From Defluviicoccus sp. (GTDB lineage Bacteria > Pseudomonadota > Alphaproteobacteria > MPNO01): a stretch of DNA of 64,000 nucleotides. Position 1 is the first letter of the stretch. Each line of letters opens with the position of its first letter. Position numbers and translations under genes: made by a program. Below the pieces are notes generated by a model that was given only the letters and a program-made list of their open reading frames with translations, was not told the DNA's origin and searched no databases. Below are positions 34,829 to 37,925 of the stretch, piece after piece. Location: assembly GCA_028821395.1 (NCBI GenBank), contig JAPPGP010000192.1, forward strand, positions 1-64,000, written 5' to 3'.

Positions 34829-35665
34829 CTATCCTTCCACCCTGATCGCCTTGAAGGCTCTTGTCTGTTCGGTCAGGGCGATTTCCGTCGGCAGGCGCTC
34901 CATCGATGAGGCGCCGTAGAAGCCGTGACAATTCTCCGTCTCGTTCAGCACGTATCGCGCGTCCTCCGGCATGGAAACCGGCCCACCGTGAACCAATACC
35001 ACGATCCCGGGATCGATCCGCATCGCGGCGGCGGCCCAGGCATCCACCCTGGCGGGGCAGTCTTCCAGCCTGACCGCGGTTTCCGCGCCGATGGACCCGC
35101 CCGTGGTCAGGCCGAGATGGCAGACCACGATATCGGCGCCGGCCCGCGCCATGGCCTCCGCCTCGTCCTCGCAGAAGACATAGGGCGTGGTCAGCATGTC
35201 CTTCTCGTGCGCCATGCGGATCATGTCGACCTCGAGCCCGTAGGACATGCCGGTCTCTTCCAGATTGGCCCGGAAGGTGCCGTCCATCAGCCCGACCGTC
35301 GGGAAATTCTGCACCCCGGAGAAGCCGAGCCGCGACAGCCGGTCGAGATAGGAATCGAAGATGCAGAACGGGTCGGTCCCGTTGACCCCGGCGAGCACCG
35401 GCGTGCTGCGCACCACGGGCAGCACTTCGTGCGCCATCTCCACCACCACATCGTTGGCGTTGCCGTAGGCGAGCAGGCCGGACATCGAGCCCCGTCCCGC
35501 CATGCGATAGCGCCCGGAATTGTAGATCACGATCAGGTCGATGCCGCCTTCTTCCTCGCACTTGGCGGACAGCCCCGTCCCCGCCCCGCCGCCGATGATC
35601 GGAATGCGGGCGGCCTTCATGGCGCGGAACTTCTCGACCAGGGCCGTGCGTTCAAACCGTGGCAT
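34829..35665 (-). CDS. TIM-barrel protein of the PEP_hydrolase-like family (Tm-1 C-terminal-domain-like)
   Basis: [58 protein letters not shown]; overlaps the upstream UPF0261-containing ORF by 14 nt. Confidence 0.85.
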
Positions 35666-37925
35666 GGCGGGCCGTCCTGGGCAGGGGGCTGATCTCTTCC
35701 AGCGCATCGGCGGCCGACCGGGCGAAGGCCGGGTCGTTGATGTGGTGCGCCAGCCGCAGGATGCGCCGGGTCGGCGTCTCCCGCAGGGTGCCGGCGATCG
35801 CATCGAACAGGGCCGCGTCTGCTTCGGGCGCGTGGAATGGCTGGCCGGGGGCGTCCAGCGCCGAGACCCCGCCCTCCGGGATCAGCAGCCGGACCGGGCC
35901 GGTCATCCGGTTCAGCCGCTCGCCGATCCAGGCGCCCATGCGCGCGTTCTCTTCCGGCGTGGTGCGCATCAGCGTGACCTGCGGATTGTGCTCGACGAAC
36001 AGCCGGTCGCGGTAGCGCTCGGGCACCGTGTCGCGGGGGCCGAAATTCACCATGTCGAGGGCGCCGAGGGAGACGACGCAGGGCAGCCGCGTGCGGATGA
36101 AGGCGCCGAAACGGTCCTCGGTCGCCGGGAACACCCCGCCCATCTGCATGTCGCAGACTTCCGTGGTCGTGAGGTCGATCGCCGCCGCGAGCAGGCCGCT
36201 GTCGGCCAGCTTCTCCATCGACCTGCCGCCGGTGCCGGTGGCGTGGAACACCAGGCAGTCGTAGCGGTCCTCGAGCAGGGAGGTGAGCTGCTGCACCGCC
36301 GGCGTGGTGACGCCGAACATGGTCAGCCCGAGGCACGGCTTGCCCGCCATGTCCGGCTCCGGCTTCTGCCGCTCGGCGAGCATGCCGGCGATCGCGCTGG
36401 CGCCGTTGGCGAGAACCGTGCGGCTGATCCGGTTCAGGCCCTGCACGTCGGTGACCGAATACATCATCATGATGTCGGCGGCGCCGACATAGCGGCCGAC
36501 CTCGCCCGAGGCGACGGTGGAGATCATCACCTTGGGGATGCCGACGGGAAGCGCCTGCATGGCCGGCGTCGCGAGCGCCGTCCCGCCCGAGCCGCCCGCC
36601 GAGATGACGCCGGCGACATCGCCCTGGCGCGCGAGCCAGGCCTCGAACGCCTCGGCCATCGCCGCCACCGAGCGGCCGCGGTCGCCGGTGAAGACCTCGG
36701 ACGATCCGCGCGGATGCGACGCCGCGACGACATGGGGCGGAACGTCGGCGGACGACGTCGCGCCCGAGGTCGACAGGTCGACTGTCTTCACGGCGACGCC
36801 GAGCGCGATCAGCCGGTCGCGGATGAAGCCGAACTCCGCCCCCTTGGTGTCGAAGGTGCCGGCGAGGTAGACGCTTCCACCTGATCGCGGATCGAAGCGC
36901 GCCGCCGGTTCGCGGAACAGCGGTTCCGGTTTCGCATCGAACGGCCGCTCCCCGCGCTCGGCTGCGGCGCCGGGCCGCTCCTGCCAGGCGGCCGCGGACC
37001 AGCGCGTCGGCGGGACATAGGCGAGCGCGCTCGCCGCAGGCTCCCCCGCCCGCTCCGGCGGGCCGGTCGCGGCTTCTTCGCGCATGTCCGGCGTCGCGTC
37101 TTCGGCGGGCGCCGTCTCCCCGGCGGCTGCGTCGGCGGGCGGCTCGCCGAGGTCGAGGTCTTCGTGGGAATGGCGTCCGACCCCCAGCAGGCGCTCCTGG
37201 AGCAGCCGGTCGGCGGCCAGCTCGTCCGACGGCATGGTGCGCGGGATCCGGCCGTTCACCATGATCGAGACCCTTTCGGCGATCGCGGTCGCGACGGAGA
37301 TGTTCTGTTCGATCAGGAGGACCGCGACCTGGTTATCCTCCGCCAGCGTAGCCAGCAGCTCCTCCACCTGGTCGACGATAATCGGGGCCAGCCCCTCGGT
37401 CGGTTCGTCGAGCACCAGGAGCTCGGGGTCCTGCAGCAGCGCCCGCGAGATCGCCAGCATCTGCTGCTCGCCGCCCGACAGCTGCCCGCCGCCGTTGTTG
37501 CGGCGCTCGGCGAGGCGCGGAAAGGCTTCGTAGACCCGCTCCACCGTCCAGGCGCCGCCGCCGGTCCAGGCGAGCCGCAGGTGCTCGTTGACCGTCAGCG
37601 AAGGCCACAGCCGGCGCCCCTGGGGGGTGTAGCCGACGCCGCGGTTGGCGATCCGGTAGGGCGGCAGCCCGACCAGCTCTTCGCCGGCCATGCGGATCGA
37701 GCCGCGCTGCACCGGCAGCAAGCCCATGATCGCGTTGCACAGCGTCGTCTTGCCCATGCCGTTGCGCCCGACCACGGCGTGAACCCCCGAAGCGAGGGTG
37801 AGGTTGACCCCCTGCAGGGCGTGGGACAGACCGTAATAGACGTGCAGGTCGCGGATCTCGAGCGCGTGCGGATCCGGCGCGATCCGGCGCGCGCGGTCAC
37901 GCACGGCCGCCCCCCCTCTCGCCAT
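35652..37925 (-). CDS. Fusion protein: LivF-like ABC ATPase plus Tm-1-like (UPF0261) ATP-binding domain
   Basis: N-term Walker [25 protein letters not shown]; after a low-complexity linker, [37 protein letters not shown] and [34 protein letters not shown]. Confidence 0.9.

Follow-up and report, generated by a model that had tools for sequence, protein, structure and literature searches.

An ABC importer ATPase fused to a UPF0261 protein, a putative ligand kinase, in a conserved proteobacterial operon

The window analysed here, a stretch of 64,000 nucleotides from Defluviicoccus sp., contains a single ORF that joins a LivF-type ABC ATPase, a Pro/Ala/Glu-rich linker and a complete UPF0261 protein (Table 1). 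A previous sequence-only reading of this DNA had placed the UPF0261 part behind a LivF-like ATPase, and the profile searches agree: three Pfam domains lie in one frame, namely ABC_tran (97 bits), the N-terminal UPF0261 domain PF06792 (203.6 bits) and UPF0261_C, PF23189 (296.7 bits), the last two well above their curated cut-offs of 27 each. The NCBIfam model NF002673 scored 604.7 against a cut-off of 520. Based on sequence and alignment, the ATPase part retains an intact Walker A motif (GRNGMGKT), signature (LSGGE) and Walker B motif (LLVLDEP). It did not reach the NCBIfam equivalog cut-offs for the LivF or UrtE subunits of branched-chain amino acid or urea transporters (LivF: 138 bits versus 441; UrtE, the best LivF-type match: 219 bits versus 285.8).

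The gene that follows encodes a TIM barrel of the PEP_hydrolase family PF09370, which matched positions 3-267 of the 267 positions of the profile with 419.3 bits (cut-off 33.8). Its conserved start, MPRFERT, lies at position 35665, giving the overlap of 14 nt with the end of the fused gene (35652-35665) that had been claimed for the two ORFs. Upstream of the fusion lie LivG, a binding protein of the Peripla_BP_6 family and two permeases that match BPD_transp_2, so that one operon holds the binding protein, two permeases and two ABC ATPases of a HAAT-type importer. The binding-protein ORF as listed (38739-40787) is over-extended; a likely start with a signal peptide (MLQIARNTLLAAAVLAIASPAGAQ) lies near 39989. 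The PDB sequences nearest to this protein include 4ey3 and 4evq, which bind benzoate derivatives, and this gives a weak hint that the importer's ligand may be aromatic. Downstream of the fusion, the TIM barrel is followed by flotillin and SRPBCC genes, a gene that joins SRPBCC to a quinone reductase, and two hydrolytic enzymes, one an alpha/beta hydrolase and the other an amidohydrolase. A CoxG-type quinone shuttle was considered for the SRPBCC proteins and rejected, since Pfam assigns them to PF10604 and not to COXG.

Table 1. Positions of the genes and protein segments of the fusion operon in the window
Feature	Coordinates	Strand	Basis
Amidohydrolase, type A operon	28649..30004	-	Operon comparison
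Alpha/beta hydrolase, type A operon	30029..30811	-	Profile match; operon comparison
SRPBCC domain fused to quinone-reductase-like zinc-binding dehydrogenase, type A operon	30815..32431	-	Profile matches; relatives' loci
SRPBCC (PF10604) protein of the conserved operon	32317..32754	-	Profile match; kept in relatives' operons
Flotillin/SPFH protein, 685 aa	32758..34815	-	Profile match; adjoins 82/83 testable fusions versus 0/24 unfused UPF0261 genes
PF09370 TIM barrel (PEP hydrolase-like)	34829..35665	-	PF09370, 419 bits; PDB 2p10, E 3e-117; conserved motifs kept
LivF-type ABC ATPase fused to UPF0261 (Tm-1/MarK-type), 757 aa	35652..37925	-	Pfam ABC_tran, UPF0261 and UPF0261_C in a single ORF; architecture shared by 94 loci
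UPF0261 N and C domains, aa 351-745, proposed small-molecule kinase	35691..36875	-	PF06792 and PF23189; AlphaFold pLDDT 92.6; Foldseek matches Tm-1 and 9mpy
Disordered Pro/Ala/Glu linker, aa about 251-350	36876..37175	-	pLDDT mostly 31-50; column entropy mostly 2-3.5 bits
Linker motif PPTRWS (R308, W309)	36996..37013	-	RW in 94/94 fusions; both residues invariant in 67/67 aligned fusions
ABC ATPase part, aa 1-252 (about 1-250)	37170..37925	-	Sequence and alignment
Second ABC ATPase of the importer, LivG-type	37897..38706	-	Profile matches; conserved neighbourhood
Periplasmic substrate-binding protein (Peripla_BP_6)	38739..39989	-	Pfam; PDB sequence comparison
LivM-type permease	40007..41074	-	BPD_transp_2
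LivH-type permease	41076..42086	-	BPD_transp_2

A search for further fusions and their neighbours, which the earlier reading had proposed as a check, recovered 94 loci with an intact fusion (the window included) in alpha-, gamma- and betaproteobacteria, set in a conserved operon; the architecture is thus not peculiar to the window's genome. The fusion was found with the same in-frame architecture in a congener and in another family. Since the frame is kept in this congener, in many other families and in all 94 loci, a frameshift or assembly artefact at the linker, which had been named as a possible refutation, is ruled out. Among 385 genomes sampled from the class, UPF0261 matches occurred in 50; in 19 of those, the window's genome among them, the open frame was long enough (765-891 aa) for the fusion, while open-frame lengths suggested about 15 fusions in a phylum-level sample of 399 genomes. 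A scan of named genomes yielded 80 loci, most of them fused, with Bradyrhizobium, Mesorhizobium, Bosea, Azospirillum, Jannaschia, Roseibium, Hwanghaeella and Pelagibius among the hosts, as well as several gammaproteobacterial assemblies; a plasmid of the betaproteobacterium Variovorax carries the fusion as well. The nearest thing to an exception lies outside the 94 intact loci: in Mesorhizobium sp. AR07 (L117:8911-11233), a frameshift in the linker puts LivF and UPF0261 in different frames, a feature seen in none of the other fusions. In one further locus (L145), masked sequence spans the linker.

The linker comprises about 100 residues, and its alignment columns are poorly conserved with the exception of R308 and W309, which are invariant across the 67 aligned fusions. 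All 94 fusions contain an RW dipeptide, preceded by T or N in nearly every case; in the unfused loci checked, neither the end of LivF nor the start of UPF0261 has it. Docking of the motif within its own chain was considered, and the AlphaFold models showed no sign of it. The low model confidence in this region suggests that any partner of the motif is probably another protein.

Of the 130 UPF0261 domains placed in a tree, the 96 fused ones all grouped in one branch of 99 rows (SH-aLRT 99). The fused clade is nearly monophyletic, but not strictly so, as two unfused sequences (L118 and L135) lie inside it; the third unfused row (L100) is a contig end. The fusion has essentially one origin. Two operons with matching importer genes (L065 and L073) encode livF and UPF0261 as separate genes that overlap or abut and are followed by a TIM-barrel gene, and the UPF0261 sequences of both fall outside the fused clade in the tree. 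The operon thus seems older than the fusion, and the UPF0261/TIM pair may have belonged to it before the two proteins were joined. The plant protein Tm-1 falls in the wider clade, outside the fused one, on a long branch that makes its placement unsure.

The conserved operon consists of the importer genes, the LivF-UPF0261 fusion, the TIM barrel, the flotillin and the SRPBCC proteins. In the named loci all four other importer genes are conserved alongside the fusion; counts of importer operons were obtained from related genomes, in which loci are not independent events. The physical tie between the domain pair and a branched-chain-type importer, pointed out before for the window, is in this way an evolutionary one as well. 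Two types of fused operon can be distinguished by their catabolic genes, type A (37 loci, including the window) and type B (59 loci), with the importer, fusion, flotillin and SRPBCC genes common to both. Type A contains the SRPBCC-quinone-reductase gene, usually together with hydrolase, amidohydrolase and FAA-hydrolase genes and often with a GntR-type regulator. Type B lacks these type A genes and carries a molybdenum hydroxylase of the CO-dehydrogenase/xanthine-dehydrogenase type in 46 loci and an AraC regulator in 48, in each case most of the loci with enough flanking sequence. Although COXG itself was unsupported, a CO-dehydrogenase-like enzyme does occur in type B operons. The SRPBCC-quinone-reductase-like dehydrogenase (30815-32431 in the window) is a second gene fusion, conserved in the 37 type A operons. 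A flotillin gene was found within 6 kb of all but one of the 83 testable fusions and near none of the 24 unfused UPF0261 genes. The association is strong, but because the fusion has one origin it amounts to roughly one evolutionary event, which a Fisher p-value ignores. The type B flotillins are longer (about 957-1156 aa in L050:11757-15224, L051:5161-8064 and L056:11865-14735) than that of the window and contain expanded repetitive, coiled-coil-like sequence.

A TIM-barrel gene lies within 3 kb of 71 of the 83 testable fusions. Ten of the remaining 12 belong to a Mesorhizobium-type clade whose operons have lost the TIM gene, and all ten of these genomes encode PF09370 elsewhere, in at least eight of them next to a second, unfused UPF0261 gene. 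Overall, PF09370 was present in 17/17 fused genomes that were re-searched and in 0/10 genomes with a gene similar to that of MarK, the single-component kinase discussed below, which implies that a protein of the MarK type can do without the TIM barrel; UPF0261 without any PF09370 protein also occurs in several other genomes (G142, G333, G354). These counts support the TIM barrel as a separate, exchangeable step. The window's genome contains a second, divergent UPF0261 gene (L081, G000:C3:5451-5978) with no PF09370 partner nearby, and no second PF09370 match was found in this genome.

PF09370 domains also occur in regulators. Several type A operons have one nearby (for example L045:17256-18995), in which an N-terminal PF09370 TIM barrel is combined with a degenerate ATPase region and, at the C-terminus, a DNA-binding helix-turn-helix of the Fis type. 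In the regulator version two conserved histidines are changed (CHLGL to LNLGW and HGGP to EGGP), while the TIM barrel next to the fusion keeps both. These changes suggest that the regulators contain a sensor that descended from the enzyme.

The UPF0261 part was modelled as a complete two-domain fold (pLDDT 92.6), and Foldseek matched it to Tm-1 and then to PDB entry 9mpy. According to its PDB title, 9mpy is Saro_1862, a UPF0261 domain protein of Novosphingobium aromaticivorans with acetovanillone bound. The window's domain is about 33% identical to it, and by alignment it keeps the polar residues conserved between 9mpy and its relatives (D14, K16, E19, D38, K120, D139, N153, H216, D239, E244, R260, D279, H301, N302, R309, D346 and N385). 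In the sphingomonad loci examined, the 9mpy relative is followed by a biotin carrier, a biotin carboxylase, a carboxyltransferase and an HAD phosphatase, usually with an IclR regulator alongside. The acetovanillone pathway of Rhodococcus runs from the kinase HpeHI through the carboxylase HpeCBA to the phosphatase HpeD, and in the hpe/acv pathway the kinase comes first (PMC9618137). The pathway of N. aromaticivorans is described as very similar to hpe/acv, except that it starts with MarK, a single-component kinase (PMC13101465). Given that the sphingomonad operons follow the hpe/acv order, UPF0261 appears to fill the kinase position in the kinase/biotin-carboxylase/phosphatase operon. On the strength of the organism, the pathway and the PDB title, MarK and Saro_1862 are very probably one protein. 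The description of UPF0261 as metabolically unexplained is therefore out of date. We infer that the window's branch of the family is likewise a kinase. UPF0261 genes are also found in 4-hydroxyphenylacetate clusters, with HpaB, HpaD, HpaE and HpaH in one (L078, 9721-19101) and HpaD and HpaE in another (L083, 3223-10196).

Several points count against a direct transfer of this function. The window's domain is only about 33% identical to 9mpy, whose relatives work beside a biotin carboxylase, and neither a biotin carboxylase nor a phosphatase gene was found among the window's operon genes. The two operon types differ in their catabolic enzymes. Other UPF0261-TIM pairs adjoin sugar-type importers (L040, L041, L067), so that the substrates of the family are probably diverse, and that of the window's fusion may not be aromatic.

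Taking the operon and the comparative data together, we cautiously favour an importer-tethered small-molecule kinase that would phosphorylate the ligand on arrival, after which the TIM barrel would act on the phosphorylated compound. A HAAT-type ABC importer, the LivF subunit of which bears the putative UPF0261 kinase on a flexible linker, would take in a ligand that is perhaps aromatic, phenolic or otherwise enolisable. The tethered UPF0261 would use ATP to phosphorylate the ligand as it reaches the cytoplasm, by which it would be trapped and activated, the overlapping PF09370 TIM barrel would then transform the phosphorylated product, and the remaining operon enzymes would complete its conversion. 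Assembly of the complex at the membrane would be the task of the flotillin and of the RW motif. Against the model stands the low AlphaFold confidence for the motif, with no sign of docking within its own chain. For Hpe phosphorylation it was suggested that it could retain a hydrophobic substrate in the cell (PMC9618137), and a kinase tethered to an importer would serve the same end. That the pair acts on the imported ligand, as the sequence-only reading had supposed, would be the simplest reading of operons that suggest importer and pair were together before the fusion (L065, L073). On this reading the importer's ligand would be the substrate of UPF0261, and the TIM barrel would convert the product. 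A stronger version is tentative and in our estimate falls short of an even chance: an ABC counterpart of PTS vectorial phosphorylation, in which the kinase sits on the motor, uptake and phosphorylation are coupled, and the RW motif docks the TIM barrel, the flotillin or a transporter subunit.

The UPF0261 domain could instead be a regulatory sensor that, alone or together with the TIM barrel, responds to bound ATP and an internal metabolite by adjusting the rate of the ATPase. Known ABC ATPases such as MetN and ModC carry C-terminal regulatory domains, and PF09370 itself is a probable sensor in the Fis-type regulators adjoining several operons (e.g. L045), with two enzyme histidines changed. 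A pure sensor would not need a whole conserved site, though, and UPF0261 keeps its MarK-like residues within a complete fold, just as the TIM barrel beside the fusion keeps the histidines that the regulators lost; we regard the sensor as unlikely. UPF0261-TIM pairs adjoin importers of at least two unrelated kinds (HAAT and sugar type), and in some loci (L070, L072, L076) no importer is visible; this would fit a fusion that only fixes stoichiometry and co-localisation while the pair acts on a cytoplasmic metabolite that has nothing to do with the importer's ligand. Such a loose arrangement is hard to reconcile with the whole importer being kept with the fused pair across the named loci, and with the unfused operons that suggest an association older than the fusion, and we consider it distinctly unlikely. 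Finally, UPF0261 and the TIM barrel might form one two-subunit enzyme that uses ATP in another way, for instance for ligation or lysis, rather than a kinase and a second enzyme. Co-evolution of the two families has been reported for bacteria, archaea and fungi (PMC5028733), and in plants they form one protein; the occurrence of UPF0261 without PF09370, in all ten genomes with a MarK-like gene and in several others, makes this improbable.

We found no published description of the LivF-UPF0261 fusion in the open-access literature searched, and the text of PMC5028733 does not mention ABC. Both annotated fusions that were checked, on plasmid records of Yoonia and Variovorax (L182:8056-10218, L183:7960-10212), carry the name "ABC transporter permease" in spite of consisting of an ATPase joined to UPF0261, and this name may be the reason. 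A corrected name would make the architecture visible in many alphaproteobacteria, among them Bradyrhizobium. If the tethered-kinase reading is true, the motor of an ABC importer carries an enzyme for its own ligand, and coupled uptake and activation become directly testable; a domain pair known mainly from Tm-1 would gain a concrete biochemical hypothesis, a small-molecule kinase with a TIM-barrel second step. Should the vectorial-phosphorylation version hold, small-molecule phosphorylation would become a candidate for the ancestral role of the plant antiviral Tm-1.

Among known systems, plant Tm-1 and Tm-1-like proteins (PDB 3wrw, 3wrx, 3wry) share with the window the combination of UPF0261 (about 45% identical) and PF09370, but unite both in one protein without an ABC ATPase, whereas the window encodes them in two genes overlapping by 14 nt and has no single polypeptide of UPF0261 and TIM barrel. 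In tomato Tm-1 it is the N-terminal domain that inhibits a virus (PMC5028733, PMC3855732). Yang et al. (2016) reported that plants have the fusion, that prokaryotes keep the genes apart and that the two co-evolve (PMC5028733). To call the window's pair a "split Tm-1" therefore turns the history around: prokaryotes usually have separate genes, and it is the plant fusion that is derived. MarK/Saro_1862 resembles the window's domain in its two-domain UPF0261 fold, its conserved residues and, as proposed here, its chemistry, but is free-standing and only about 33% identical, with sphingomonad relatives in a biotin-carboxylase operon that have neither a TIM partner nor an importer fusion. The two-component aromatic kinases HpeHI and AcvAB likewise open hydroxyphenylethanone catabolism with a kinase step (PMC9618137, PMC12167813), yet have an unrelated fold of ATP-grasp and swivel domains, and theirs is the step that UPF0261 appears to replace in sphingomonads; this fold also rules out HpeHI as a homologue of the UPF0261-TIM pair (PMC12167813).

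On the transport side, the window has the full set of a HAAT importer (LivFGHMK/Urt), with binding protein, two permeases, LivG and LivF, but its LivF bears the long linker and a whole second protein, and reaches no LivF or UrtE equivalog cut-off. MetN, ModC and MalK also have an extra C-terminal domain on an importer ATPase. In these proteins the additions are small regulators, whereas the window's ATPase carries an entire enzyme-like protein whose homologues are free-standing.
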